A DNA stretch of 40,321 bases, taken from positions 1-40,321 of the IMG/VR virus record IMGVR_UViG_3300025728_000379; one strand, written 5' to 3'. Shown piece after piece: positions 1,609 to 40,321 of the stretch (the first letter of the stretch is position 1; the number at the start of each line of letters is the position of its first letter). The stretch comes from a virus. The notes beneath the pieces are model-generated. The model was not told where the DNA came from, searched no databases, and saw nothing but the letters and a program-made list of their open reading frames with translations. The position numbers were made by a program, and so were the translations under genes.

Positions 1609-1857
1609 TTACAGTGACAGGTTGAGCTGATCGCGCCCATAGTGGGAGGTGGGGAAGGCGTCTTGCGGGATAAAGTCAGGCGGTAACTCTTCGCGCGGGC
1701 CGCGTTTCGTTACCAACTTTTCAACGCTGTTCAGCGTCGTAAACGTGATGCTGCATTCGAAATTCTGACACTGGTGATACTGCCGAATCGTCATTTCACT
1801 GAGGCGGCGACTGGTGCGTGTACGGGCCACGGCACCACAGATCGGGCAAACAAACAT
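1609..1857 (-). CDS. ogr: Ogr/Delta-type late transcription activator
   Basis: Zinc-finger activator of P2-type late promoters; it binds TGT-N12-ACA dyads upstream of the late operons and contacts host RNA polymerase. The 82-aa protein has the family's four cysteines at residues 4, 7, 30 and 35 (C-x2-C-x22-C-x4-C) and the RYHQCQN-like segment seen in P2 Ogr (here RQYHQCQNFEC). It is about ten residues longer than P2 Ogr, with a divergent C-terminus. The ATG is preceded by GGGAGG. It lies directly downstream of D, the same position as in P2, and has its own terminator before attL. Two candidate binding boxes in this window (3117-3134 and 21088-21105) fit its expected role. Confidence 0.95.
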   Translation of the reverse strand: MFVCPICGAVARTRTSRRLSEMTIRQYHQCQNFECSITFTTLNSVEKLVTKRGPREELPPDFIPQDAFPTSHYGRDQLNLSL

Positions 1858-1902: not shown

Positions 1903-3057
1903 TCACTGTTCACTTTCTGCAATCCATTCGGGTATTTTGGCCTCAAATTCCAACCGGGTGGTAAAGCCGTTCCCGTCAATAGAATGGCTGGCCCGGGCTA
2001 TAATCCAGTCCTGATTATCGATATCCGTTTTAAATCCCGTTACCGTGCCGTGCATTTCTGGGTATAAGTCGGCGCAGCCGTAAGCCAGGGTAAGGGTAAA
2101 TTCAGCAGCGCCGCGTTTCAGCTGCTGCCATTTAGCGGCGGCGGCCCGCTTTGCGGCTGTTTCGCTATTGTAGGTTTTACGCAACACATAAACGTTGCCG
2201 TCTTCCCCCTCGATATAATCGCCTTCGCGGTTGCTGCTGCGGGCCGGTTTCTTTTTCGCCGGCTTGCGGGTTTTCACCGTGACCTTTTTCTTCTTTCCAA
2301 ACTCCAGATCCAGCCAGTAGGCGCGCACACCGGTATAGGCGTCACGGTCAGCAATGCGGAACGAATGTCTGTCACCGCTGCTGCGGGTGATGGCGAAGGA
2401 GGGTAGCGCCTTGCCGTTAGCGCTGACGCCACCGCCTGGCAGGATAAACAGCAGGCTGCCATTCTTCACCGTGGCGATGGCGCCCAGCATTTCGGCCATG
2501 CGCGTCAGGAATGACATATCGCTTTCTTGAGTTTGGTCGGCGTGGTCGATCTCCAGTTCCATGAGCTGCTGCGAGATGATGGCTTTCAGGTTGTATCGCC
2601 TGGCGATCGCTGATACCACCCGTTCTACGGTGACGTCATGCCAGGACACTTCGCGCTTGACGTTGAACTCGTCACGAAAATCGGCGCTGCGTGCGGTGAT
2701 CGTCAGCGTATCAGGCGGCCCGGAATGCGCCACTTCATCCACGATGAAAACACCTTTGTACACCAGTGCTTCACCGTGCCAGCCCATCGATGCGGACACT
2801 TCGGCGCCGCGCGGCGGCAGCTGCAGCTGGCCGTCCGTATCGTCCACGGTGATCGTCAGCTCGTCGGCTTCAAAGCCGCGGTTATCGGTCATTTCCAGTG
2901 ACAAGACGCGTTCATCCAGTGCGGTCAGCTCTTTGCCGCCGAGCAGGACGCTGAACGCCGGTACGCGCGACAGCTCCGCCTGGTAACCGTTGAACGTGCC
3001 GGCTCTGTTATCCAGCAGTGTTCTGGCCTTGTCGATTGCGTCAGTAGTCAGTGCCAT
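1903..3057 (-). CDS. D: Tail protein gpD (baseplate hub / late control protein)
   Basis: 384-aa tail hub protein of the P2 gpD family (P2 D is 387 aa), structurally comparable to the T4 gp27 hub; it sits at the tube-baseplate junction and holds the gpV spike. The reading frame is open further upstream. The start is set at 3057 because the protein from there begins MALTTDAIDKARTLL and an AAGGGGGAG ribosome site lies just before it. The extra upstream residues would overlap the FI promoter region. The middle contains a Lys/Arg-rich stretch near residues 260-280 (KKKKVTVKTRKPAKKKPAR). It is divergent from FI across a shared Ogr box and leads into ogr. Confidence 0.95.
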   Translation of the reverse strand: MALTTDAIDKARTLLDNRAGTFNGYQAELSRVPAFSVLLGGKELTALDERVLSLEMTDNRGFEADELTITVDDTDGQLQLPPRGAEVSASMGWHGEALVYKGVFIVDEVAHSGPPDTLTITARSADFRDEFNVKREVSWHDVTVERVVSAIARRYNLKAIISQQLMELEIDHADQTQESDMSFLTRMAEMLGAIATVKNGSLLFILPGGGVSANGKALPSFAITRSSGDRHSFRIADRDAYTGVRAYWLDLEFGKKKKVTVKTRKPAKKKPARSSNREGDYIEGEDGNVYVLRKTYNSETAAKRAAAAKWQQLKRGAAEFTLTLAYGCADLYPEMHGTVTGFKTDIDNQDWIIARASHSIDGNGFTTRLEFEAKIPEWIAESEQ

Positions 3058-3116
3058 GGCTCCCCCTTTGGCGCTGATGGTTTCATGCGCGCGCGACGGG
3101 GAAAACAGCGCATTGT

Positions 3117-3134
3117 TGTCGCCGGTGGATGACA
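3117..3134. promoter_or_regulatory. Candidate Ogr box between D and FI (divergent late promoters)
   Basis: TGT-N12-ACA, the Ogr/Delta recognition pattern, occurs within the longer dyad TTGTTGTC...GACAACC. Its centre (about 3125) is 55 bases upstream of a plausible FI start site near 3180, with GAATAT-like -10 bases at about 3169-3174. The TTGTTGTCG and CCGGCACCGC flanks match the second box at 21088-21105. In the other direction the D start lies 60 bases away, so one dyad may serve both operons. Confidence 0.8.
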
Positions 3135-3208
3135 ACCGGCACCGCGTGTCGGGTATGCATTTTTCAGCGAATATCACCACGAACTCACAAGCATGATGGC
3201 GGTACAGT

Positions 3209-4390
3209 ATGACCGACAATTTTTTCCACGGTGCACGCGTCAAGGAGAACACCGACCTGCAGACCGCGATCAATGACGTTGATTCAACGGTCATTGGTCT
3301 GGTCGCGGTGGCGGATGATGCTGACGCAACCACCTTCCCGTTAGACACTCCAGTGCTGGTTACGCGGGTTATCAGCGTGCTCGGCAAGGCCGGTAAAACC
3401 GGTTCGCTCTATAAATCCCTGAAGGCTATTTCCGACCAGGTCAGCACCCGCGTGATCGTGGTACGTGTAGCGGCAGCCGGCACGGAAGACGGCGCAAAAA
3501 CGCAGTCGCAGCTGATTATCGGCGGCTCCCAGGCGGACGGCAGTTACACCGGCATGTTCGCGCTGCTGACTGCCGAGCAGAAAGTCGGCTACCGGCCGCG
3601 TATTCTCGGTGTGCCGATGTACGACACGCAGGAAGTGACCGCACAACTGCGAGTGATCGCCAAGCAGTTGCGGGCATTCACCTACAACTATTGCGATGGC
3701 TGCGAGACGATCGCCGAGGTGAAAACCTATCGCCAGCAGTTCGCCGAACGTGAGGGCATGCTGATCTGGCCGAACTTTATCGCCTATAACCCGGTGAGCG
3801 GTGAGAACGAAGAGTTCCCGGCGGTGGCCTATGCGTTGGGGCTCCGGGCGAAAATCGATAACGAGCAGGGCTGGCATAAGTCGCTGTCTAACGTGGCGGT
3901 GAGTAACGTGCTCGGTATCACCAAAGACGTCTTCTGGGCGCTGCAGGCGGAGGATTCCGACGCCAACGAACTGAACGCCAACGAAGTCACCACGCTGATC
4001 AAGCGTGAGGGATTCCGTTTCTGGGGCAACCGCACCACGGACAAAGATAAATATATCTTCGAGGTGTACACCCGCACCGCGCAGATCCTGGCGGACACCA
4101 TCGCGGAGGCGCAATTCACCACGGTGGACAGCCCGCTGACTCCGGCCAATGCCAAAGATGTCGTCAGCGGAATCAATGCCAAACTGCAGGGGAAAGTCAC
4201 TGACGGCCAACTGATCGGCGCCGCGTGTTGGTTCGATGTCGTGGATAACCCGACAACCGGCCTGCGCCAGGGTAAGGCAGTGGTGCGCTACGACTACAGC
4301 CCGGTGCCGCCGCTCGAAGATTTGACCATGATCCAGACCTTCACCGATCAATACTACGAAGCGGCCTTCGCGTCGCTGGGAGGGGCATAA
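3209..4390 (+). CDS. FI: Contractile tail sheath protein gpFI
   Basis: 393-aa sheath subunit (P2 FI is 396 aa). Copies stack round the FII tube and contract on adsorption. Strong family landmarks include PRILGVP, ALGLRAKID.EQGWHKSLSNV, GFRFWGNRT and the C-terminal DYSPVPPLEDL. It is first in a plus-strand operon FI-FII-E/E'-T-U driven from the Ogr-box region shared with D. The stop codon abuts the GTG start of FII. In canonical P2 this gene has the same orientation as the fibre genes and D; here it is opposite. Confidence 0.97.
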   Translation: MTDNFFHGARVKENTDLQTAINDVDSTVIGLVAVADDADATTFPLDTPVLVTRVISVLGKAGKTGSLYKSLKAISDQVSTRVIVVRVAAAGTEDGAKTQSQLIIGGSQADGSYTGMFALLTAEQKVGYRPRILGVPMYDTQEVTAQLRVIAKQLRAFTYNYCDGCETIAEVKTYRQQFAEREGMLIWPNFIAYNPVSGENEEFPAVAYALGLRAKIDNEQGWHKSLSNVAVSNVLGITKDVFWALQAEDSDANELNANEVTTLIKREGFRFWGNRTTDKDKYIFEVYTRTAQILADTIAEAQFTTVDSPLTPANAKDVVSGINAKLQGKVTDGQLIGAACWFDVVDNPTTGLRQGKAVVRYDYSPVPPLEDLTMIQTFTDQYYEAAFASLGGA

Positions 4391-4906
4391 GTGGCTATCC
4401 CTAAAAAGCTTCGGTTATTCACGCTGTACGTAGACGGCACCAACCACATTGGCAAGATCCCCAGCGTCACCTTGCCAAAGGTCACCCGCAAGACGGAAGA
4501 CTATCAGGGCGGCGGTATGCTGGGTGCCGTGGGCGCTGATATGGGCCTTGACGGCGGCGCGCTGGATGCGTCTATGGTAGTCGGCGGCGTCGTTGAAGAG
4601 CTGATCCTCAAGTACGGCGGCGATATCGACGGAATGCGCCTGCGCTTCGTCGGTGAAATCTACAGCGGCGGTACCAGCTCACTTATGGAAGTGGAGATGC
4701 GCGGCCGCCTCACCGAAATCGATCAGGGTGAGGCCAAGCAGGGCGATGACACTATCCACACCTACGCCATCAAGAACACCTACTACAAGCTGTCGGTGGA
4801 TGACAAGGCGCTGCTGGAGATCGACCTGCTGAACTTCATCTACAAGCGCGACGGGAAGAACCTGTACCCCGATCGCATTGTTTCAGCTCTGGGCCTTGGC
4901 GGCTGA
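4391..4906 (+). CDS. FII: Tail tube protein gpFII
   Basis: 171-aa tail tube subunit (P2 FII is 172 aa) that polymerises into the inner tube through which DNA passes. The GTG start at 4391 directly follows the FI TAA, giving translational coupling. Family features include the N-terminal P.KLRLF.LYVDG segment and the C-terminal NFIYKRDGKNLYPDRI. It is second in the tail operon. Confidence 0.96.
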   Translation: MAIPKKLRLFTLYVDGTNHIGKIPSVTLPKVTRKTEDYQGGGMLGAVGADMGLDGGALDASMVVGGVVEELILKYGGDIDGMRLRFVGEIYSGGTSSLMEVEMRGRLTEIDQGEAKQGDDTIHTYAIKNTYYKLSVDDKALLEIDLLNFIYKRDGKNLYPDRIVSALGLGG

Positions 4907-4932
4907 TTTTTAACCTTTAAACCCATTTTGAA

Positions 4933-4952
4933 GGCGGCCCATGCGGCCGCCT
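4933..4952 (+). repeat. Hairpin between FII and E
   Basis: AGGCGGC and GCCGCCT pair around a short loop just upstream of the E ribosome site (TGGAGAA). There is no T-tract, so it is not an obvious terminator. It could adjust mRNA stability or translation between the abundant tube protein and the chaperone. Confidence 0.55.
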
Positions 4953-4965
4953 GGAGAACTCGCAC

Positions 4966-5265
4966 ATGCCAGTAACGCTCACTACACCGATCAAACGCGG
5001 TGACAAAGAGATCACCACCGTCATCATCACCGACACCATCAAGCAGGCCGGCTCACTGCGTGGCCTGCGCCTGGTCGACGTGCTCAACTTCGACTATGAC
5101 GCAGTTTCAACGCTGCTCACCCGCGTCACCGCGCCAGCGCTGACCGCCGCCGATATCGCCATGTTGGATACCGGCGACTTTGTCGCGTTCATTGAAGAAA
5201 TGACGCCTTTTTTGACCAAAGCGGCGCCGTCCGTACCGAACGGGGCGGAGACGGGGAACAAGTAA
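4966..5265 (+). CDS. E: Tail assembly chaperone gpE (unshifted product)
   Basis: 99-aa tail chaperone of the P2 gpE family (P2 E is 91 aa); with its frameshifted form E+E' it coats the tape measure T during tail assembly. The position between tube FII and tape measure T is conserved in contractile and siphoviral tails. The start ATG follows GGAGAACTCGCAC. A slippery heptamer TTTTTTG at 5208-5214 lies near the end of the frame. Confidence 0.93.
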   Translation: MPVTLTTPIKRGDKEITTVIITDTIKQAGSLRGLRLVDVLNFDYDAVSTLLTRVTAPALTAADIAMLDTGDFVAFIEEMTPFLTKAAPSVPNGAETGNK

Positions 5266-5441
5266 GGGAACCGCTGTTTGTCAGCGTTGACGATCTCATC
5301 GCTGACATTGCTGTAGTTTTTCACTGGCCGCCCTCCGAGATGTACGGCATGGAGCTGCGCGAGCTGATGGCATGGCGCCAGCGCGCCGCCATCCGTAGCG
5401 GCAACCATGACGATGACGACGAGGACGACCATGGATCTTAG
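4966..5441 (+). CDS. E': Tail assembly chaperone gpE+E', made by -1 frameshift
   Basis: At T-TTT-TTG (5208-5214) a -1 slip joins codons 4966-5214 to the frame starting at 5214 and ending in TAG at 5441, giving a 158-aa fusion. The shifted extension contains WPPSEMYGMELRELMAW, which strongly resembles the P2 E' sequence, while frame 0 stops at 5265. P2 E+E' is 142 aa and uses the same heptamer. The final codons overlap the start of T. The acidic tail DDDDEDD is an unusual local feature. Join: 4966..5214, 5214..5441. Confidence 0.9.
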
Positions 5442-8400
5442 TATTCGCGTCGCGTTCAACGCGATCGATAAGCTCACTCGCCCGGTTAAAGCCGCTAGCA
5501 AAGCTGTTAGCGGTCTTTCTGACTCCCTCAAAAAAACACAGAGCGCCGTTAAAGATCTGGATAAGCAGGCTGCCAGCTTTGACCGCCTGCGCGCACAGGC
5601 CAACGACACGGCACAGAAGATTAACCGTGCGAAGCGCGAATTTAACGGACTGAATCAGACCGTTCGCGAGGGCGGGCAACTGACAGATGCCCAGGCCGCG
5701 CACCTGGAGAACCTGCGCGGCAAGCTCTCTCGGCTGACGCAAACCTATAGCCTGCAAACGGCCAAGCTGCGGGAGGCGGCTCAGGCGGTGCGGCAGCATG
5801 GCGTCAACCTGTCCGCCGGCAGCGGCGCGATACAAAGCGCCATCCGGCGAACGGCACAATACAACCAGCAGCTCGAGCGGGAACGGCGCCAGCTGGCTGC
5901 CGTTACCCAAGCTCAAGCCGGCTACACCCGTGCCAAAGACACCGCCGGCAAGCTGCGCGGTTCCGGCATGGGAATGGCTGTCGGTGCTGCGGCGGCTGGG
6001 TACGCCGGCGGCCGTTTCCTGGCGCCGGCCGTAGGGTTCGATGCCGAAATGTCACGCGTGCAGGCGCTGACGCGACTGGATAAAAGCTCGTCGCAGTTGG
6101 CCGACCTGCGCGCCCAGGCGAAAAAACTCGGCGCCGAAACTGCGTTTACCACTCGTGATGCGGCCAGCGGCCAGGCATTTCTGGCAATGGCTGGCTTTAC
6201 GCCGCAGTCAATTCAGGCCGCGTTGCCTGGCGTGCTCAACATGGCGCTGGCTGGCGGGATGGATCTCGGCGAGTCCGCGGACATCAGTTCGAACATCCTC
6301 TCTCAATTCCGCCTCGATCCGAAGGAAATGGATCGCGTCAGTGACGTGCTGACGGGGGCATTCACCCGCACCAACACCGACCTGCAGAACATCGGCGAAG
6401 CAATGAAGTATGCCGGTACGGGGTTATCTAACCTCGGCGTCAGCGTAGAGCAAACGACGGCGATGATTGGCGTGATGGCGAACGTGGGCCTGCGCGGCAG
6501 TATTGCCGGTACTGGGTTGCAAACCACGTTCTCACGCCTGGCCGCGCCAACGAAAAAGGCCAACGACGCGCTGAAAGAGTTAGGCGTCACCGTGGCCGAC
6601 TCCACCGGCAAGATGCGTCCGGCCGAGGACGTTCTCACTGACCTTTACAAATCGATCAAGAAATACGGCGCCACCGATCAACTCTCGTTCTTCAAGGATA
6701 TTGCGGGCGAGGAAGCCGCGAAGTCATTCCAGGCGCTGGTTTTATCAGCCGGCAGTGGTGAGTTGCAGAAGTTGCTGGCCGACCTGAAGAAATCGCAGGG
6801 TGAGGCGCTGAAGGCCGCCAAGGTGATGGCGGATAACCTCGGCGGCGACCTGAAGGAGCTGGACTCCGCCTGGGAAGGCTTCCGCATCCAGGTTGAAGAA
6901 ACTGCCGACGGCCCGCTGCGCAAACTGACGCAGGGGCTGAGTGAGGTAATCAACGCCGCTAGCCAGTGGGTGAAAGAAAACCCGCGGCTGGCGCAGTCCA
7001 TTCTGTTGACCGCCGGCGCCGTCACCGCCCTGGTGGCCGCGCTGGGGATCGCCAGCCTGGCGACCGGCCTGCTGATTGGGCCGCTGGCTAAGCTGCGTTT
7101 GGGCTTCACATTGCTGACGGGTGGGCGCGGTCTGATGGGAACCGTTAGCGCGCTGCGGAGCTTCGTTGGCGCCGGCGGCAACGCCATGGCGAGGATTAGC
7201 GGCTGGTCGCGTGTGCTGACTTCGCTCTCTGGTGGTTTCCGTGGGCTGCAGGGCTCGCTGGCGACGCTGCGCAGCATGCTGATGGGCGTATTTATGGCGC
7301 CGTCGGCAGCGCTGGGTTCATTGGTGCGTGGCGTGATGGGGTTGGCGCTACGGCTGACGGGCCTGTCTACGTTATGGGGCATTCTTACCGGCGCGCTTTC
7401 GGCTCTGGGTGCTGCGCTGTCATTCCTGCTGAGTCCGATTGGGTTGATTGGCGCCGCATTTGTCGCGGCCGGCGTGCTTATCTGGCGCTATTGGGAACCG
7501 ATCTCGGCGTTCTTTGTTGGTTTCGGCACCAGCGTTATGCAGGCGCTGGCGCCGTTGCGTGATGCCTTTGCCCGCATTGCCCCGATTTTCAGCGTGATTG
7601 GCGACGCCCTTGGGCGCGTGTGGGACTGGTTCGCCAAGCTGCTGACGCCAATGCAGACCAGCAAAGAGACGCTGGAGAAATGCGCCAGCGCCGGCGAGAC
7701 GTTTGGTCGGGTGTTTGGCGCTGCGCTGCAGGTGCTGCTGTACCCACTGTCAAAACTGATGGATGGTGTGGGTTGGCTGCTGGAGAAAATGGGCCTGATC
7801 CCGGATGGCATCGAGCAGGCACGGCGCAAGGCTGAAGAATTACGAAACCAGCCGGCTATGTGGGAGTGGGATCCTCAGCAGAAAAAGATGGTTAAGAAAG
7901 GGTGGAGCTGGGCCGGCCCCGGTCTGCCTACGGGGGCAGCTACCGTCGATCCTAAGCTGGGCGGAACGCCTCCGCCGGTGCTGACGGGGGATACCGGCAC
8001 GCAGCGACGCCTGAACGAGATCGCCGGCAATACTAAGGCCACTGCCGACAACACCAAGGCCGCCAAACGCATTGGCCCGGGGGATATCGTCTTTAAAAAC
8101 CTGCCGCGTGCACTGGCGTTGCGCGGGGCGTACCAGGAAGCACGCGTGATGCCGCAACCGGTACCGCGTGTGGCGGCCGCTGCCGGCGGCGGGGTGCTCT
8201 CAGTGCCGTCGGCGTCACAGCCGGCCGTCATGGCACCAGTGTCTGCCCCTGGTGGCGGCGGGCCCGTTTTCCAGTTGGTCTTTAACGATGTGGGTAAGCG
8301 CTCGGATCAGGAGCTGGAGCGGATGGTGCGCAGCGCGGTGCGCGATGCGATGGCCAGCACAGTCAGAGGTAACCGCGGGTCATTCCGCGATCGAGATTAA
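5431..8400 (+). CDS. T: Tail tape measure protein gpT
   Basis: 989-aa tape measure protein that fixes tail length inside the tube (P2 T is 815 aa). Residues about 20-170 are charged and heptad-like, followed by an Ala/Gly-rich stretch and a conserved PhageMin_Tail-like region (FTTRDAASGQAFLAMAG and similar). Two hydrophobic blocks lie near residues 525-555 and 615-700, and the C-terminus is basic. The frame is open from 5407, but ATG 5431 is preferred because GAGG lies six bases upstream and the product starts MDLSIRVAFNAIDKL like other gpT proteins. It overlaps the end of E' by 11 bases. Confidence 0.95.
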   Translation: MDLSIRVAFNAIDKLTRPVKAASKAVSGLSDSLKKTQSAVKDLDKQAASFDRLRAQANDTAQKINRAKREFNGLNQTVREGGQLTDAQAAHLENLRGKLSRLTQTYSLQTAKLREAAQAVRQHGVNLSAGSGAIQSAIRRTAQYNQQLERERRQLAAVTQAQAGYTRAKDTAGKLRGSGMGMAVGAAAAGYAGGRFLAPAVGFDAEMSRVQALTRLDKSSSQLADLRAQAKKLGAETAFTTRDAASGQAFLAMAGFTPQSIQAALPGVLNMALAGGMDLGESADISSNILSQFRLDPKEMDRVSDVLTGAFTRTNTDLQNIGEAMKYAGTGLSNLGVSVEQTTAMIGVMANVGLRGSIAGTGLQTTFSRLAAPTKKANDALKELGVTVADSTGKMRPAEDVLTDLYKSIKKYGATDQLSFFKDIAGEEAAKSFQALVLSAGSGELQKLLADLKKSQGEALKAAKVMADNLGGDLKELDSAWEGFRIQVEETADGPLRKLTQGLSEVINAASQWVKENPRLAQSILLTAGAVTALVAALGIASLATGLLIGPLAKLRLGFTLLTGGRGLMGTVSALRSFVGAGGNAMARISGWSRVLTSLSGGFRGLQGSLATLRSMLMGVFMAPSAALGSLVRGVMGLALRLTGLSTLWGILTGALSALGAALSFLLSPIGLIGAAFVAAGVLIWRYWEPISAFFVGFGTSVMQALAPLRDAFARIAPIFSVIGDALGRVWDWFAKLLTPMQTSKETLEKCASAGETFGRVFGAALQVLLYPLSKLMDGVGWLLEKMGLIPDGIEQARRKAEELRNQPAMWEWDPQQKKMVKKGWSWAGPGLPTGAATVDPKLGGTPPPVLTGDTGTQRRLNEIAGNTKATADNTKAAKRIGPGDIVFKNLPRALALRGAYQEARVMPQPVPRVAAAAGGGVLSVPSASQPAVMAPVSAPGGGGPVFQLVFNDVGKRSDQELERMVRSAVRDAMASTVRGNRGSFRDRD

Positions 8401-8414
8401 CGGAGGTAATAATC

Positions 8415-8906
8415 ATGATGATGGTATTCGGGATGTTTGTTTTTACGCTGCGCACGACGCCCTATCAGCAACTGCGCCATTCTCAGGACTGGCGCCACGT
8501 CAAGAACGATCGCGTCAACCAGTCCGCCGGTTGGCAGTATATCGGGGCAGGGGATGACAGCATCACGCTTGACGGTGTGCTCTATCCTGAGATCACCGGC
8601 GGCGGCGTGTCGCTGTATACGCTGGAGACTATCGGGTATACCGGCCGGCCCTGGCCGTTGATTGAGGGGGACGGCCGAATTTACGGCATGTACGTGATGA
8701 CGCGCCTGGAGCGTGGAAAATCCGAGTTTGACCGCTACGGTAACGCGAAGAAGATAGAGTTCACTATCAGCCTGAGCCGTGTCGACATCGACTTCCGCGA
8801 GAAGCTGCAAACGACGTCGGCAAGTGATGTGCTGGGCGAGCTGCGCGCGAGCGCCAACAAAGCGGTCAATTCGGTGGCGAACTCGGTAAATGGGTTATTC
8901 GGTTGA
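8415..8906 (+). CDS. U: Tail protein gpU
   Basis: 163-aa tail protein of the P2 gpU family (P2 U is 159 aa), acting at the tail tube end during assembly and needed for plaque formation. The MMM.FG.FVF.L.T.PYQQ N-terminus and the ITLDGVLYPEITGG segment are typical. A strong GGAGGT ribosome site lies 8 bases before the ATG. It is the last gene of the plus-strand tail operon and converges on the fibre operon at a shared terminator. In P2, U is followed by D; here it is separated from D by the inverted block. Confidence 0.95.
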   Translation: MMMVFGMFVFTLRTTPYQQLRHSQDWRHVKNDRVNQSAGWQYIGAGDDSITLDGVLYPEITGGGVSLYTLETIGYTGRPWPLIEGDGRIYGMYVMTRLERGKSEFDRYGNAKKIEFTISLSRVDIDFREKLQTTSASDVLGELRASANKAVNSVANSVNGLFG

Positions 8907-8977
8907 CGCATAGCACTGAATGACTGTGCTCGATACCGGCAGATATAGACGTCACTGGCTGTACTGCAGGAGAAGAA

Positions 8978-8996
8978 AAAGCCCGCGAGGGGCTTT
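8978..8996. terminator. Bidirectional terminator between U and the fibre operon
   Basis: AAAGCCC-GCGAG-GGGCTTT is a perfect 7-bp stem flanked by A-rich sequence on the left and CTTGTTTT on the right, so it has a T-tract in both readings. It separates the converging U and fibre operons. Confidence 0.88.
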
Positions 8997-9015
8997 CTTG
9001 TTTTCTGTCGGCGGA

Positions 9016-10083
9016 TTAGGCCACGCGATGCCACAACATCTGAAGCTTGTGCCGTTCGACAATGTTTAGCGCCTGGCCCTGGCCCAGCCTATCTGTTTCG
9101 CCGCCAGCGAGGACGTGGTTATGTGTTGGGATGGTGAAGGTATGATCGTGCTCTCCGGCCTCATTGGTTTCACCCTGCTGGTACGGGTCGAAAAATACGG
9201 TGTTATTACCGCCTAATTCATATTTGCTATTGCGCATTGGAACACCGCCGTGCGTGTGTTTCCCGGATACTTGGGTGCGTAGCACGCCAAAATCAACTTC
9301 ATCAGTGAACCCCTTCACCCCCAGACTTTCTTCCGGCAGATTGGCGCGCGTGATGTTTACCGTGTCACTGCCGCCGATACTTCCGACGTCTGAGCCGTCC
9401 GCGTTTGCTGTCCTGATGGTCAGGTGCCCCCCGGCATACTCCCATGTTGACCACGGCCAGCGCTCGTTAGGGTTCACGTTCTGGTTGAACATGCGTGACG
9501 AGCCGATGGGGTTGTCCTGTTCCCAGGCGTCGCGAATCGCAGTCTCAACGGCGTTAGCGATGGCATTTTTTATGCTTGCGTCCAATTCGCTGATCGCTTC
9601 GTCCGTGTAGTCTTTTGCCTCGTTTTTGGCATCGTTAACGTCCTGCTCGGTGGCAATGACGACGGCCGGGTCGATAATCAGCGCCACATGCTCTGTGCTG
9701 CTAACAGCCAGTTGCACACGCACGATCTGAGTGCGGCTTGAGCCATCGGTTGTTAAAGGCTTATAGCTTTCCGGCATGTTGCCGATAGCAATACATACGC
9801 CGTCCGAGGCAAACAGGGCGACCTCGCGTAACCACCACCCGCCAGCCTGCGCGGGGATTACCATTTCCGCTTCAACGACATTCGCCGCCGCGACAGCTAA
9901 TTTATTCAGCGGTGCGCGGTACACCTCACCGATCAGAGTCGCCTGATTCGGGTCGGGGGTAGGGAGAGTACCGCCGCCATCGCCGACGGCCATTTCTGCG
10001 ACATCCAGTTGACTCCCAGATGCTATGGCGTCGGCCAGTCTTTCAGAACCAATAGTTGTTATTACTGAGTAATATTTTTTCAT
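9016..10083 (-). CDS. Tail fibre protein, gpH-type N-terminus with collar-like C-terminus
   Basis: 355 aa. Residues 1 to about 160 match the baseplate-attachment domain of P2 gpH (VITTIGSERLADAIASG, MAVGDGGG, GGWWLREVALF, MPESYKP). The rest is short compared with P2 H (669 aa). Near the C-terminus there are histidine-rich motifs (KHTHGG, EHDHTFTIPTHNH) like those of phage collar/needle fibres that bind metal ions in a trimer. ATG 10083 was chosen over an upstream in-frame start because it follows AGAGGG and begins MKKYYSVITTIG. It is the distal gene of the minus-strand late operon. The likely role is host receptor binding or anchoring of the neighbouring spike. Confidence 0.88.
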   Translation of the reverse strand: MKKYYSVITTIGSERLADAIASGSQLDVAEMAVGDGGGTLPTPDPNQATLIGEVYRAPLNKLAVAAANVVEAEMVIPAQAGGWWLREVALFASDGVCIAIGNMPESYKPLTTDGSSRTQIVRVQLAVSSTEHVALIIDPAVVIATEQDVNDAKNEAKDYTDEAISELDASIKNAIANAVETAIRDAWEQDNPIGSSRMFNQNVNPNERWPWSTWEYAGGHLTIRTANADGSDVGSIGGSDTVNITRANLPEESLGVKGFTDEVDFGVLRTQVSGKHTHGGVPMRNSKYELGGNNTVFFDPYQQGETNEAGEHDHTFTIPTHNHVLAGGETDRLGQGQALNIVERHKLQMLWHRVA

Positions 10084-10099
10084 TGCTTGCCCTCTGGGG

Positions 10100-10840
10100 T
10101 TACTCCAGTCCAGCCGCATATTTTTGATATAAATACTGAATCAAACGCAATCTATCGCCTGTTGTAAAAATCCCATCGATAATAAACAGGCATGAAACAT
10201 CCACATCACTAGTAATAGTTGAATTTTGGTTTGAACCTACTAATAGCGTCTTTGTCGATGGAGTGTGAGGCTCCAGCATTGAATCGATAAACTGATTTTC
10301 CAGAACTGGATCATACCCCCCGAAATTAAACCCAATTTCTTTCCAATTCACAAAGTAGCTGTTAAATTCCAATCCGAATTTATTCGTCGGCAGATTCAGG
10401 AATTTAGTTTTCAATCCTGTACCTGATGCCATATAACCCGCAACATCCGCAGCACGAATTTTCATTGCATCACCATTTGACCCTGACGCAACAGGTCCAT
10501 AGTTCGAAATAAAAAAACCATTTGTTTTACTTTCGTCGGCCAGCCGTGCCAATGCTATGACGGTGGTTTCTGCTCCCGGTGCGATTTGCGTATCAAAATA
10601 CCCGAAGTTGTTAACCCGCACGTACCCATTAAAATACCGTGGACTGCCGCGCTGCAATAGCGGCAGCTCTGGATTGGCAAAATTGTAGAGAGGGTCAACT
10701 CTGTTTGAGCCAAAAAAGTATGCCCCCCTTAGAAGCTGACTCACTTCAACAGGAAAATCTGAGGGTAAATTTCGGCTGAAACTGTCGAAATCCTTAGAGC
10801 CTCTGATTTTATTTTGTGTTTTTCCTAAAAGCACAGCCAT
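10100..10840 (-). CDS. Putative LamG/ConA-like tail-module protein
   Basis: 246 aa, start MAVLLGKTQNK with GAGG upstream (an upstream in-frame ATG exists at 10870 but overlaps the spike gene). No firm family call. The pattern of short beta-strand segments (RYFNGYVRVNNFGYF, ETTVIALARL, KTLLVGSNQN) ending in IDGIFTTGDRLRLIQYLYQKYA resembles concanavalin-like lectin modules in phage fibres. It sits between the esterase spike and the gpH-type fibre and shares their low GC. A carbohydrate-binding partner of the spike is the best guess. Confidence 0.6.
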   Translation of the reverse strand: MAVLLGKTQNKIRGSKDFDSFSRNLPSDFPVEVSQLLRGAYFFGSNRVDPLYNFANPELPLLQRGSPRYFNGYVRVNNFGYFDTQIAPGAETTVIALARLADESKTNGFFISNYGPVASGSNGDAMKIRAADVAGYMASGTGLKTKFLNLPTNKFGLEFNSYFVNWKEIGFNFGGYDPVLENQFIDSMLEPHTPSTKTLLVGSNQNSTITSDVDVSCLFIIDGIFTTGDRLRLIQYLYQKYAAGLE

Positions 10841-10844
10841 ATTA

Positions 10845-12512
10845 TTAACCTCGCAGAATTTTATTAACAATATCTTGAGCTATCATGTCAGCACCAACAA
10901 TATTGACATGAAACTGATCATCCCACACGCCTAATGGGTTACTGATTCCGTGCGGCGGTATGTAATCGTACGCACTATAAAACTCATATCCATTTTCACA
11001 GGCAACATCACTAATGATGTCCCGCACCACCGACATTCTGGCTGGTAAATCTGAGAACCCATGTTGCGCCGGAGCAACGGCTATAATAGATACATTTGGG
11101 AATGCATTTTTTAATGTTGACAGATACGCGGCGTAGTAGTTTTTGAACTCCGCCATGTTAACACTGAGTCTGTCATCATTCGTTCCAAGAAAAACAATTG
11201 CCACATCTAGTGCCAGTATGTCCGAGTAATTTTTAATGTTATCCATATAATTGACGGTTTGAAATGCAGCCATGCCTCCGTTGCCGCATTTGTGAACCAA
11301 TAGCCCGCTAGCCCCCTCTATAACTGCGTGAAACATTGTTATACAAATCACGCCATTATTGCCCGTCGTATCAACAGAAATCAGGTGTTTTTCACGTGAA
11401 AGCCCAGACACTTTGCTTTCAAGAATTTTCCCCGTCCCGGTTCCAACAACAGTGATGTAGTCGCCGTTATCAATTTTATATTTAAATGTTCCATTTAAAT
11501 CATAATAAAAAACCGAGAACGTTGTGCCAACAACATTGGTTATTGATATTTTAGCATCGTTGCGTGATGTGTATGCCGCGGCGCCATCAGGCCCACAGCT
11601 GTAAGGGGGCGGTGCGGTTGCTGCCGATGCATCCCACTTTGTCCAGCCAGATGACGTCATAACAACATCACCCCACGGGTACCACTCGGCAACTGGAGCA
11701 CTAATAAACCCGGTTCCGCATTCGCCAAGTTCAGAGTAAGCCGCTTTCAGCCGTAAGGGGATAGCGTCGCGATGTGACCAGGAATCACCGAAACACGCGA
11801 TTCTTGTCACGCCCATTCCCATGACCGCTTTGGCGCGATTTGCCTTGTGTTTATATGCCGTCCGTCCATCAGTTGACAGCTGGAACCTACGCAGGCCCTC
11901 TGAAACCGATTTTCCAACCCGACTAATATTAAACCCGTCTGTGCCATCCCACACCGGCACGTCTGCCGGAAAATCATCAATCTCACTAACAAATAGCGGG
12001 GTGACATCTGGGATTTTTTCTTTAATATTTCTCATCCCCGTCATGTTATCGGCTGCACCCGGGCCATCCAATAAACCATCTGCATTTATAAAATAGACTG
12101 CCTCACCGGCTTCTGTTTTAAATAATGGTGTCATATTGTTTATTGTTTCAATGCTTGGCAGGGATTTTTCCCAAGATTCATAATTGGGTAATTCGTTTCC
12201 TGTTGGTGTTGCGACTCCATTTTTATTTTGATATTCCTCAAGCCATACTCCTGGTGCGTCTCCCCGAACACTGACACGGACATCTAACGCAATTTTGTTA
12301 TCGTCAATGTCTTTCTGAAATTCGCCAGCGGACTGATAAGGGCGCTCACCGCTGGCAATCCCTTCCAGCATCTGCTTTAAATAACATGTGCGATTTGCCA
12401 GTTGCCTGGCTTGAATATTTGCGACACCATCACGACCACCCGAAACGCGTTCTTTGCGGTCTATCTGATGAATCTCGCCTTCCCAATTGGGATTTTCGTT
12501 TATTTTTGTCAT
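10845..12512 (-). CDS. Tail spike with SGNH/GDSL esterase domain
   Basis: 555 aa. The N-terminus (INENPNWEGEIHQIDRKERVSGG, NIQARQLANRT) is a common phage fibre attachment segment. Residues about 235-555 form an SGNH hydrolase: block I FGDSWS with nucleophile Ser244, block III GTND with Asn445, and block V DQFH with Asp532 and His535. This predicts an esterase, plausibly removing O-acetyl groups from surface polysaccharide during adsorption. A beta-rich insert lies between blocks I and III. It follows gene I at the usual fibre position. The ATG at 12512 follows GGGGTG; a GTG two codons earlier is possible. The base composition is clearly AT-richer than the baseplate genes. Confidence 0.87.
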   Translation of the reverse strand: MTKINENPNWEGEIHQIDRKERVSGGRDGVANIQARQLANRTCYLKQMLEGIASGERPYQSAGEFQKDIDDNKIALDVRVSVRGDAPGVWLEEYQNKNGVATPTGNELPNYESWEKSLPSIETINNMTPLFKTEAGEAVYFINADGLLDGPGAADNMTGMRNIKEKIPDVTPLFVSEIDDFPADVPVWDGTDGFNISRVGKSVSEGLRRFQLSTDGRTAYKHKANRAKAVMGMGVTRIACFGDSWSHRDAIPLRLKAAYSELGECGTGFISAPVAEWYPWGDVVMTSSGWTKWDASAATAPPPYSCGPDGAAAYTSRNDAKISITNVVGTTFSVFYYDLNGTFKYKIDNGDYITVVGTGTGKILESKVSGLSREKHLISVDTTGNNGVICITMFHAVIEGASGLLVHKCGNGGMAAFQTVNYMDNIKNYSDILALDVAIVFLGTNDDRLSVNMAEFKNYYAAYLSTLKNAFPNVSIIAVAPAQHGFSDLPARMSVVRDIISDVACENGYEFYSAYDYIPPHGISNPLGVWDDQFHVNIVGADMIAQDIVNKILRG

Positions 12513-12514
12513 TC

Positions 12515-13117
12515 TCACACCCCAGAATAATAAATGTTGCCTTTAAATGCGTAAGTGCCGTCGTAAATAATTGCATCGTCAATTGCTACGTCAGGCGGAT
12601 AAATTGTGATGATGTCGCCATCTGTCACTGCTGCGCCGATGGTGATAGTGCCTGTTGATCGCGTTGCAATGGCGAGGCCGGCAAGATGCCGGCTTACCGG
12701 TTTGGCATCACCGACAAGCCGTTCCAGCTCATTCAACGTTTTAACGGTGATCCCCACGTCATTGACGTCAACTTCAAGCCTGAAGGTGCCCGGCAGATCG
12801 CCGGTGTCGAACCACTCGGTAAACGATGCCGAAAACCCCATATCTTCAATGACGCGACGCACTGCGGCGCGTGTGCCCTTACGGCGATGAAGCCAGTAGG
12901 ATTGCTGGATCGCCGATATCTTTTTCTCTGCCGGCCAGTTCTTGTCCCAGTGGTCGACCGACAGCGCCCAGGCGAGATACGGCAACAAATCAACCGGGCA
13001 GGCGGTCGGCGTCCACAGCGTGCGCAGCGCGACAGTGATCGCCGACAGTCGCGCAGTGACCATTTCGGTGTGGCGCATCCAGGCGCCGGCGGACGGGGGG
13101 AGCAAGGTGTTATTCAT
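12515..13117 (-). CDS. I: Baseplate/tail protein gpI
   Basis: 200-aa gpI family protein (P2 I is 176 aa), required to attach fibres to the baseplate. The start MNNTLLPPSA overlaps the end of J by 8 bases and follows GGTGGGACGG. Residues up to about 150 contain the family core (LPYLAWALSVDHWD, IQQSYWLHRRKGTRAAVRRVIE). The last 45 residues are an extension next to the variable spike gene and may be the spike docking segment. Confidence 0.93.
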   Translation of the reverse strand: MNNTLLPPSAGAWMRHTEMVTARLSAITVALRTLWTPTACPVDLLPYLAWALSVDHWDKNWPAEKKISAIQQSYWLHRRKGTRAAVRRVIEDMGFSASFTEWFDTGDLPGTFRLEVDVNDVGITVKTLNELERLVGDAKPVSRHLAGLAIATRSTGTITIGAAVTDGDIITIYPPDVAIDDAIIYDGTYAFKGNIYYSGV

Positions 13118-21087: not shown

Positions 21088-21105
21088 TGTCGGAGAACGG
21101 CGACA
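21088..21105. promoter_or_regulatory. Candidate Ogr box between O and P (divergent late promoters)
   Basis: TGT-N12-ACA within TTGTTGTCG...CGACAGCCGGCACCGC. The flanks match the D/FI box closely. It sits 77 bases from the O start and 54 from the P start, suiting divergent late promoters of the head-lysis-tail operon and the P-Q operon. Confidence 0.82.
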
Positions 21106-21139: not shown

Positions 21140-21158
21140 TTAACCTCCCCGGCAGGAC

Positions 21159-24373: not shown

Positions 24374-24739
24374 TCAGGCGTGTTTCATGCGCTCGTTGAG
24401 GGTTTCAACGATGAAAGCATTGACCGAAACCTCATGTTCTGCCGCTGCCTGGTTCAGCCGTTCGCCGAACGATTCCGGGTAGCGCAGGGTGAACGTCTTG
24501 ATTTTCTCCTGGCGTGCGTATGGCTCGATGCCGGCGGCGCTGCAATCGTCCAGATATTCGCGCAAAGAGATCTCGCCCTCTTTTTTCAGCCCCTGGATGC
24601 TGTCGGAAACGAAATCACAGTAACCGGACAGGCCGAGAAATTTACCGCGAAATGCGCCCAGCTCAGGAACAAAGCTGATTACCGCCGGTTGCCCGGCGAT
24701 CTCCATGGTGTTTGGTGTTGCTGCTGCTGTCTTCGTCAT
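24374..24739 (-). CDS. hicB: HicB-family antitoxin
   Basis: 121-aa antitoxin of a type II HicAB module. The N-terminal part (about 10-85) contains a partially degraded RNase-H-like fold (GELGAF-like ELGAFRGKFLGLSGYCDFVSDSI). The C-terminal PESFGERLNQAAAEHEVSVNAFIVETLNERM is a ribbon-helix-helix DNA-binding domain. It should bind HicA and repress the operon promoter. The ATG overlaps the hicA stop codon. Toxin-first order is typical of hicAB. Confidence 0.92.
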   Translation of the reverse strand: MTKTAAATPNTMEIAGQPAVISFVPELGAFRGKFLGLSGYCDFVSDSIQGLKKEGEISLREYLDDCSAAGIEPYARQEKIKTFTLRYPESFGERLNQAAAEHEVSVNAFIVETLNERMKHA

Positions 24740-37051: not shown

Positions 37052-37078
37052 GGCGAAAGCCTCCCTTTTTTGTTGTTT
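37052..37078. repeat. attR core (27-bp direct repeat, right copy)
   Basis: Identical to 1459-1485. Here the preceding bases (AATGGC) do not complete the ptsG stem: the C/T mismatch weakens the hairpin, so this copy is not a good terminator. Confidence 0.93.
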
Positions 37079-37279: not shown

Positions 37280-40200
37280 ATGGCATCGTTGAAATATCAA
37301 AAAGAAGCCGCTGCACTGTTATATGCCGTTCTTGGTGTAAAAGCCGATATGATAACGTTCGACACCATCGGGAACAGCTTTGAGAAAGGGTTCCTCACGA
37401 AAGTGGATTACGTCACGTCTCTTTTAAATTCTGACGCCGGGCAAAGTATTTATGCGGGAAAAAGTGATGCCGACATCGTACGGGTGATCTCGAATAAGAT
37501 TTATGGGCCGGAATGGGATGACGATTTAACCTGGCAACTGGAAAGTAAGGGTCTGGCTGGGACCCTGGTGAGTGCTGTCGATACCCTGGTTAACTATCGT
37601 GGCGATGATGATTCTTATCCAGTAATGGTTGCGTCACAGAAAGCTTTTGAAGTGCAATTAAACAACATTATGTACCCCTCTTACGCGGCGGCAGGCAGCG
37701 TGGACGGCGTTTCTAACGTTCTGTCGCTCTACTACCTGGCCGGCATCGATCCTGTGACGTCGACGGTGAATAAACTGGGTGCCTATATCGACACCGATCA
37801 GCGCGCCTTTGTCGAGGTGGCTTCACAATTCGTGAAAGACAGGTCCAAGCTGCAAACGCTCTCCAACGGCGATTTTGCCAAGTTGCTGTTCAAGCAGGGC
37901 TATGAGCGAGAGCCTACCGATACGGAGCTGAATGCGGCTGTTGCATTCCTCAACGATGGCGGAGATCGAGGACAGCTGATGGTGAACGTCATCACGGGTT
38001 TGCGCGGCACGGTTGGGGCGGATGATACGGCGGCGCAGCAATATTTCTTGCATGACACCGCGCCGCACGCTCCGGGGATGAAGGCTGAACTTGCCCTCCA
38101 GGAGCAGGTCGCTTCACTGTTCCTGGCGATACCGCAGCGCAATATCGATGCGCTGGGGCTGGATGACTGGAGCAGCTATTTGGGGAAACACGGCAAATCG
38201 TTGGATACCCTGACGGCCAAACTGATGGCGTCCGTTGAGTTTCAAAAGAAGGGCGCCCAGCTAAGCGGCAATGATTTTATCCAGCATGTTTATGCTGCGG
38301 TGCATGGCGTAAAGGCGACTGACGAGCAGTTAGCTTTGTATGGTAGCCTGAACGGCGATAAAGCTCTGATTACCACGACAATCATCAACGAGCTGCGCGG
38401 CTCTGCCCTAACGAGCGGTCAGGAATTCGAACAGCATCGAGCGTTTGAACAGGCTATCGGTGTCAGCCTGGGGTATAAACCCGTGGCCATGCTATCAACC
38501 GATAAAAACAATAATATTATCGGTCAAGAGAATACCGGCAGCAGCCATATATTGAGCAGGGCGGAAATTGCCGTATTGGAAAGTATCACAATAAATGTTT
38601 TAACAGCAGTGGTTGATCTAAGCTATGCCGGGCACCTGAATAATATAACAATTACTGGTGACTCGACTGATAGCACAATAACACTTTCAAGCAGTAACGA
38701 TCATCGCGGGATAGATGTTTATCTCAATGCACGGGATATAACGTTAAATACGGGGGCCGGCGACGATACTTTGAAATTGGGATACGGTGCAGATGTCGGA
38801 TATCCTGAGCTGGGTTTTTTCGCCACTGATTCGCATTTTAACCTGGGGGCCGGCAACGATGTATTGTATTGGGCTGCGTTGTCTGGAAATAGCCTGAAAC
38901 TTTCCCCCTATGTAACCGCAGACGGCGGAGAGGGCATCGATACCATCTCCGCGAACTATTTTACTAAATATTTATCCTCACGAAATTATAATGGAACCCT
39001 GGAAACGAAAATTATCACTAGCACCGACTCGTTCAAAAGCTTTGAAAAGATTGAAGTCGGGGGTTTTATCGGCGGCGCTGTGACAATTCTAAATAACGTA
39101 GAGGTTAAGGTCAGCGATGGTTATGAGTTCGACTACGGTTTACTGACCGGTAAGGCAACTGCGAACGGAATTGGCGATCCGGGTACGGTGATTAACGTGT
39201 CTCCAACCTCTTTAGGTCAGTTGGGATTCGTTTTATCGATGAGGGCTCGTGACGTGAGCGTGATTAACGTTGAGGGAGGGGATGTCGCACAGCTCCAGGT
39301 GAAAGGGAATGCCGGGGCGGAAAGTGCATTAAGTTTCACCTTCCTGAAAGATGCCACCAATAAGTTTGATATCAACTTCGATTATGCGCTGACGGGCGAA
39401 AGTTTGAAGTATACGGGGGTGAACGCCGGCACAGTCAAAGTCATCAGCAGCAGCTCTGCTGGGGGGACGGCGCTGACGGATATCAACATTCTCTCTAATG
39501 GCCGCAATGACGATCACCACGATTATCTCAACACTCTCAACCTCGGAGGCGTCAACACCGACGTGACCACGCTGAGCATTTCGGGGAAAAATCAGCTGAA
39601 GCTGAATCTGGAGGCCGGTTATTCGCACGTGAGAACTATCGACGCCGCCGCCAACACACGCGGTGTTGATATCACCGCCAACGTCAGCGGCAGCGGCGAC
39701 GGCGTGGTGTTGAATTTCCTCAAGCTGTTCCCGGCCAGCGGCAACAGCGGCCAGGCGATAATCGACCTGTTTGGTTTCAAGGGCGATGATGTGAATATCG
39801 TGGGCACCGAGCAGGCCGATAAGCTCAGCGTCTCGGGCAATTCACAGGTGACGGGCGGCGCGGGCGCGGATGTTTTCACCTTGCTGAGCAGCACGCCGAG
39901 CGCCGGGGTGACCGTCAGGGATTTCAGCCTGCACCAGGACAAGCTGGTCGACGTTAAATCCGGGCTGGCGTTATCCGATAACGCCGGCGGCACCCGGGTG
40001 GCGGACTATGGCGACAGGTCTGACGCGGCTATCCAGGGGGCGCTGGACGGGTTCATCAGCGGTGGTTCGCTTACCTCGACGGTCAACTTCCTTAAAACCC
40101 TGCTCGGCATTCAGGACAAGGCGCTGGCGCAGGTTGGCGTAGTGGGCACCAGCGCGGGCAGCTATCTGATTATCGATCAGAATAAAGACGGCGCGCTGGA

Positions 40201-40321
40201 TAACCGCGATACGCTGGCCTTCCTGGCGGGGGTGAACCACGATGACGCAGCGCAAATCTACTATGCGGCCAACGCCGGCATAACGACCAATGGCGTGCAG
40301 AGTGAAGCCCTGTTTGCCTGA
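37280..40321 (+). CDS. slaA: S-layer protein, SlaA-like, with RTX-type repeats
   Basis: 1013 aa, window ending exactly at the stop codon. No Sec signal. The N-terminal half is helical with DUF4214-like segments (about 198-240, 332-375). RTX-type calcium-binding nonapeptide-like repeats follow (NTGAGDDTL about 489, LGAGNDVL about 522, GGAGADVF about 859), with beta-rich sequence between them. The C-terminus ends NGVQSEALFA, a hydrophobic tail typical of type I (ABC) secretion signals. Composition is poor in Cys. These match the S. marcescens SlaA S-layer protein, exported through LipBCD. The secretion genes are not in the window. Confidence 0.85.
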   Translation: MASLKYQKEAAALLYAVLGVKADMITFDTIGNSFEKGFLTKVDYVTSLLNSDAGQSIYAGKSDADIVRVISNKIYGPEWDDDLTWQLESKGLAGTLVSAVDTLVNYRGDDDSYPVMVASQKAFEVQLNNIMYPSYAAAGSVDGVSNVLSLYYLAGIDPVTSTVNKLGAYIDTDQRAFVEVASQFVKDRSKLQTLSNGDFAKLLFKQGYEREPTDTELNAAVAFLNDGGDRGQLMVNVITGLRGTVGADDTAAQQYFLHDTAPHAPGMKAELALQEQVASLFLAIPQRNIDALGLDDWSSYLGKHGKSLDTLTAKLMASVEFQKKGAQLSGNDFIQHVYAAVHGVKATDEQLALYGSLNGDKALITTTIINELRGSALTSGQEFEQHRAFEQAIGVSLGYKPVAMLSTDKNNNIIGQENTGSSHILSRAEIAVLESITINVLTAVVDLSYAGHLNNITITGDSTDSTITLSSSNDHRGIDVYLNARDITLNTGAGDDTLKLGYGADVGYPELGFFATDSHFNLGAGNDVLYWAALSGNSLKLSPYVTADGGEGIDTISANYFTKYLSSRNYNGTLETKIITSTDSFKSFEKIEVGGFIGGAVTILNNVEVKVSDGYEFDYGLLTGKATANGIGDPGTVINVSPTSLGQLGFVLSMRARDVSVINVEGGDVAQLQVKGNAGAESALSFTFLKDATNKFDINFDYALTGESLKYTGVNAGTVKVISSSSAGGTALTDINILSNGRNDDHHDYLNTLNLGGVNTDVTTLSISGKNQLKLNLEAGYSHVRTIDAAANTRGVDITANVSGSGDGVVLNFLKLFPASGNSGQAIIDLFGFKGDDVNIVGTEQADKLSVSGNSQVTGGAGADVFTLLSSTPSAGVTVRDFSLHQDKLVDVKSGLALSDNAGGTRVADYGDRSDAAIQGALDGFISGGSLTSTVNFLKTLLGIQDKALAQVGVVGTSAGSYLIIDQNKDGALDNRDTLAFLAGVNHDDAAQIYYAANAGITTNGVQSEALFA

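Follow-up and report, generated by a model that had tools for sequence, protein, structure and literature searches.

We consider it highly probable, from sequence comparison, that the window (the whole 40,321-nucleotide stretch analysed here) holds a KSP20-type P2-like prophage in which a single ancestral inversion of the FI-U tail block has become fixed, and in which one shared palindromic Ogr box drives two predicted promoters, pF for FI and pD for D. What carries this reading is seen directly in the sequences: the gene order, its fixation across a clade, the lone branch on which the change falls in the trees of FI and D, the box itself and the mirrored -10 columns around it.

Results

The FI-U tail block is inverted relative to P2

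A preliminary description of the window had proposed that FI to U is inverted relative to P2, with D, ogr and the fibre and baseplate genes on the minus strand. Open reading frames and Pfam matches confirmed this layout: FI, FII, E (with E'), T and U occupy the plus strand from 3209 to 8906, whereas D, ogr, the fibre genes and the baseplate genes I, J, W and V are on the minus strand (Table 1). The FI, FII, E, T, U and D homologues adjoin one another, and the FETUD gene set of P2-like phages (Peduoviridae) is thus present. They do not form a co-directional FI-FII-E-E'-T-U-D operon, as D lies on the opposite strand, here and likewise across the whole lineage described below. The order found in that lineage, D and ogr on minus, FI to U on plus, then fibres and baseplate on minus, is the order of the window. 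D has its ATG at 3057, with AGGGGGAG just 5' of it.

The block also has the signature of an E/E' frameshift. A slippery T_TTT_TTG in E, at about 5208-5214, is predicted to lead into E' in the -1 frame (region 5206-5430, plus strand), and three-frame translation showed this frame to be open into the start of T (frame 2: ...VDDLIADIAVVFHWPPSEMYGMELRELMAW...) and to encode a GpE'-like peptide. P2 likewise has an E-E' frameshift, with E' running into T as in the window.

Two further minus-strand genes were observed outside the block. The protein in fibre position after I (10845-12518) has a GDSL-like lipase/acylhydrolase domain (Pfam, 1.5e-9) and is possibly a tail-borne surface-polysaccharide esterase. 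A HicB-family antitoxin-like gene (24374-24739) adjoins the portal gene.

Table 1. Tail genes and regulatory elements of the window; promoter elements and the terminator are predictions.
Feature	Position	Strand	Description
ogr	1609-1857	-	late-gene transcription activator, 82 aa, zinc finger; Pfam Ogr_Delta 2.9e-19
D	1903-3057	-	baseplate hub, outside the inverted block; Pfam Phage_GPD 2.2e-16
predicted pD -10, AACCAT	3082-3077	-	43.5-48.5 bp from box centre, mirror position
palindromic Ogr-type activator box TGTCGCCGGTGGATGACA	3117-3134	both	perfect TGT-N12-ACA; candidate common to pD and pF
predicted pF -10, GAATAT	3169-3174	+	box offset as in colinear phages (68/68 there)
FI	3209-4390	+	tail sheath; Pfam Phage_sheath_1 4e-24; 95% identical to KSP20 FI
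FII	4391-4906	+	tail tube; Pfam Phage_tube 5e-46
E	4966-5265	+	tail assembly chaperone; Pfam TAC_7, slightly below its cut-off
T	5407-8400	+	tape measure; Pfam PhageMin_Tail 2.2e-52
U	8415-8906	+	tail protein, final gene in the inverted block; Pfam Phage_P2_GpU 2.9e-39
predicted terminator hairpin	8978-8996	both	a T-rich tail on each strand; z about -2 for either strand
collar-type tail fibre	9016-10119	-	last gene of the minus-strand late operon; Pfam Phage_tail_fib 5.7e-49
second Ogr-type box	21088-21105	both	between divergent capsid (O side) and terminase (P side) genes
candidate -10 at second box, CATCAT	21052-21047	-	
candidate -10 at second box, TAACCT	21141-21146	+	

The inverted order is fixed in a large lineage

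We pooled 568 loci from seven viral-contig scans, one genome-contig scan and the named phages. Among the FI loci fetched, D was inverted in 250 and colinear in 259; where both D and the baseplate genes were visible, 174 loci were fully inverted, 206 fully colinear and one (L405) mixed, counts that include near-copies and depend on the queries, and that show fixation within each group and not true frequencies. In all 80 of the nearest IMG/VR loci, found via FI, D preceded FI and lay on the other strand; wherever baseplate genes were visible, these too were opposite FI. The inverted order was present in seven named phages (KSP20, 3LV2017, P88, Shae_phiSM, phiT5282H, ST16-OXA48phi5.4 and SEN4), which span at least five genera according to the taxonomy lines of their records, while P2, 186, Yersinia 42.18, Dobby, ENT90, ST437-OXA245phi4.1 and Momento have the colinear P2 order. 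Named hosts of inverted loci were Enterobacterales in every case. The inverted layout is ordinary for this genome and standard in a large Enterobacterales P2-like lineage.

These numbers dispose of the idea that the rearrangement is peculiar to this phage, since seven named relatives and 250 loci have it. They also bear on the possibility, raised at the outset, that the order was produced by the assembly: relatives sequenced independently, phage isolates and prophages alike, have the identical order, which excludes an assembly error and leaves an assembly or binning artefact with a negligible probability.

The mixed locus L405 was evaluated as a flipped tail block and rejected. An invertase occupies 7345-7908; I, truncated at its 5' end, and fibre genes are on the plus strand, and a second fibre set is on the minus strand. 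The locus also contains runs of N and a broken D, and it reads as a flipped fibre segment beside the invertase. In this locus (7333-12400) the invertase lies by a two-armed fibre segment whose flipped part takes in the 3' portion of I; in this phage, variation of the fibres may extend to tail protein I.

The block borders have no recombinase signature

The proposed borders were also examined. Strand transitions occur at both 3057-3209 and 8906-9016, as the preliminary description had it, but no inverted repeat joining the two was found beyond chance. The only 18-nt pair near both block ends, an 83% match, falls within FI and U. Border repeats as recombinase traces were accordingly rejected, none being above chance level. 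Their absence is expected because the inversion would be old and fixed.

This result is relevant to a different model, in which the FI-U block is phase-variable and switches orientation repeatedly, as invertase-linked fibre segments do. A DNA invertase does lie beside U in several relatives (P88 and Shae_phiSM), and L405 has its flipped fibre segment beside U. However, the window has no border inverted repeats, no colinear copy occurs within the inverted clade, so that close relatives do not show both orientations, and the invertase-linked segment of P88 and Shae_phiSM is a fibre segment outside the block. We regard phase variation of the block as very improbable, and a fixed inversion as the better reading.

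At the right border, the preliminary description had the U end meeting the fibre operon at one terminator, and we found a predicted hairpin there (Table 1), towards which U, ending at 8906, and the fibre gene, with its stop at 9016, both run. In a strict search, a perfect-stem terminator was present after U in 110 of 234 inverted loci; because the proportion is no higher, conservation of the terminator is not claimed.

One Ogr-type box lies between D and FI with predicted mirrored -10 elements

The FI end was expected to face D across a single Ogr box, and such a box was found in the 151-bp D/FI gap. It is the only TTGTC-N10-GACAA in the 40-kb window, and its position is fixed in 81 of 82 close loci. 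TGT-N12-ACA is also the consensus published for late promoters of P2, and in Smp131 the promoters PP' and PO' lie on one box (PMC3931495).

Of the 250 inverted loci, 163 had a strict box, located 80-85 bp before FI in every case; random anchors gave a rate of 0.33%. The strict TGT-N12-ACA search misses annotated P2 sites, which are imperfect, and the 87 inverted loci without a strict box are therefore not counted as siteless. Many of them have TGT-N12-AGA at the equivalent place; once these variants were counted, the number of distinct inverted sequences with a box rose from 117 to 181. The right half-site is degenerate (AGA) in part of the inverted lineage, which speaks against the shared-box reading. 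In colinear phages the FI box lies 78-86 bp from FI. This matching distance suggests that the FI promoter was retained through the inversion.

On the FI side, a -10-like NANNNT motif 43.5-48.5 bp from the box centre occurred in 92 of 117 inverted sequences (most of the others had it one base further) and in 68 of 68 colinear ones. On the D side, the mirror NANNNT at the same offset was present in 113 of 117 distinct inverted sequences versus 4 of 68 colinear sequences (Fisher p about 1e-39, a statistic that ignores relatedness). Among 15 non-redundant inverted sequences, A, T and T at -48.5, -47.5 and -44.5 were 100% conserved, whereas alignment of the colinear set on the box centre gave no conserved column on the D side.

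One could argue that D has its own Ogr-independent promoter and that the box serves FI alone. Consistent with this, the box-to-D distance is variable (55-112 bp), the D-side leader having no fixed length, and the box-to-FI distance is tighter (80-85 bp). Yet the D-side mirror -10 columns are kept in nearly all inverted phages and are absent from that place in colinear ones, and for this reason we hold an independent D promoter to be quite unlikely.

The D/FI gap is thus best read as a predicted divergent pair of Ogr-dependent promoters, comparable to P2 pO/pP and to the candidate pair at the head-gene box of the window. In P2, a single activator site (3057-3087) lies between the pO and pP start sites at 3016 and 3127 and serves divergent late operons. 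In the window, the box at 21088-21105 has candidate -10s on both sides, an arrangement like that at D/FI. The P2 pO/pP site serves head genes, and P2 has no such pair at D/FI. The predicted spacing at D/FI, with TGT-N12-ACA about 55 bp upstream of the start plus a -10, is that of an Ogr-dependent late promoter. By this spacing Ogr would bind at the box and both promoters would fire, in keeping with the earlier suggestion that the layout lets Ogr turn on both sides.

FI and D trees point to one inversion, J to later exchange

FI and D trees were built from 80 representative rows and not rooted with an outgroup. In both, the inverted phages formed one side of a single branch (support 100), and the FI and D of the window fell within the inverted clade (support 100). 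The tree of J, a baseplate gene outside the block, required three orientation changes: rows of the SEN4 and L136 types group with P2-type J, and L151 with the J of Yersinia 42.18. A more careful J tree again needed three changes, a single change was found in 0 of 200 bootstrap trees, and the AU test rejected a single inverted clade (p = 0.035). Given that J does not support a single inverted clade, D+FI-U is probably exchanged between phages as a single cassette. The simplest reading, for which the J evidence is moderate, would be one FI-U inversion, after which D and FI-U were kept together and recombined with different baseplate modules.

As to direction, the colinear order is taken as ancestral because of its wide host range, and the inverted order would accordingly be derived. 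In the FI tree, unrooted as it is, the inverted phages are nested inside the colinear ones with only 85% SH-aLRT. The opposite polarity, with the inverted order ancestral in P2-like phages and the single P2 operon derived, would accommodate the long branch that separates the two groups (0.83 in the unrooted FI tree). Against it, all Pseudomonas, Burkholderia and Acinetobacter phages and many enteric P2-like phages examined are colinear, and the inverted order occurs only with Enterobacterales hosts, where a host is named. Phage Mu also has its sheath, tube, chaperone, tape measure and hub genes in one direction. We judge an inverted ancestor unlikely.

Likely prophage ends

A 27-bp direct repeat, GGCGAAAGCCTCCCTTTTTTGTTGTTT, occurs at 1459-1485 and 37052-37078 and is likely the attL/attR core. 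Its left copy lies within terminator-like sequence behind a PTS EIICB (ptsG-like) gene, and no tRNA was found in the window; the integration site appears to be an intrinsic terminator, not a tRNA. Just outside the right repeat, a large repetitive open frame (37280-40321, plus strand, 1013+ aa, DUF4214) probably encodes a secreted or surface protein of the host, truncated where the window ends.

Discussion

We propose that FI-FII-E-E'-T-U flipped once in the ancestor of a large Enterobacterales lineage and that the new order was then fixed. The inversion would have brought the FI promoter and its Ogr box directly upstream of D, so that one box could drive divergent pF (FI-U, plus strand) and pD (D-ogr, minus strand). 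One box can in principle drive two divergent promoters because it is palindromic and because activators of the Ogr type work from a site about 55 bp upstream of the start, and the inversion may have been tolerated because a symmetric activator site could serve D too. At the other end, the fibre and FI-U operons would run towards each other and stop at a shared two-way terminator. D and FI-U would since have behaved as one cassette, apparently combined with various baseplate modules by recombination.

More tentatively, and as a possibility somewhat short of even, this may be an architecture invented once, in which a palindromic site let a five-gene inversion persist and a self-contained cassette has since passed between P2-like backbones. 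The unit passed on would comprise hub, activator, sheath, tube and tape measure around one promoter pair.

We found no description of the inversion or of the D/FI promoter pair in the open-access literature, subscription literature lying outside the search. Among enteric P2-like prophages, a large share departs from the textbook map of the P2 late operons; from the layout, two divergent promoters driven by Ogr would be expected at D/FI; and the inverted order is a synapomorphy usable in classifying these genera.

Comparison with known systems

P2 has all these genes in one direction (V W J I H G / FI FII E E' T U D / ogr). P2 and 186 share with the window the genes, Ogr/B-dependent late control, the FI promoter geometry and the E-E' frameshift; they differ in having FI-U-D as one operon that reads in the direction of the baseplate genes.

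Among the closest known systems is Serratia phage KSP20 (AB452988), with the order D(-)/FI(+)/FII/E/T and an Ogr box in the matching position. Its DNA is 90.5% identical to the window over the common 5.5 kb; the record is a 6-kb fragment that stops inside T. In this record (locus L082, 838-2268) the annotation places the gpD start within FI, whereas a KSP20 D start about 150 bp before FI, the equivalent of 3057 in the window, agrees better with conservation and with the promoter model.

Klebsiella phage 3LV2017 (Reginaelenavirus) and Escherichia phage P88 (Xuanwuvirus) have FI-U inverted, with D, baseplate and head genes opposite, as in the window, but fibre regions unlike that of the window; P88 has in addition an invertase with an alternative fibre set, and its box lacks the strict right half-site. 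In Salmonella phage SEN4 (Senquatrovirus) the block is likewise inverted, although its FI is only about 60% identical and its J groups with P2-type J proteins, not with the J of the window's group.
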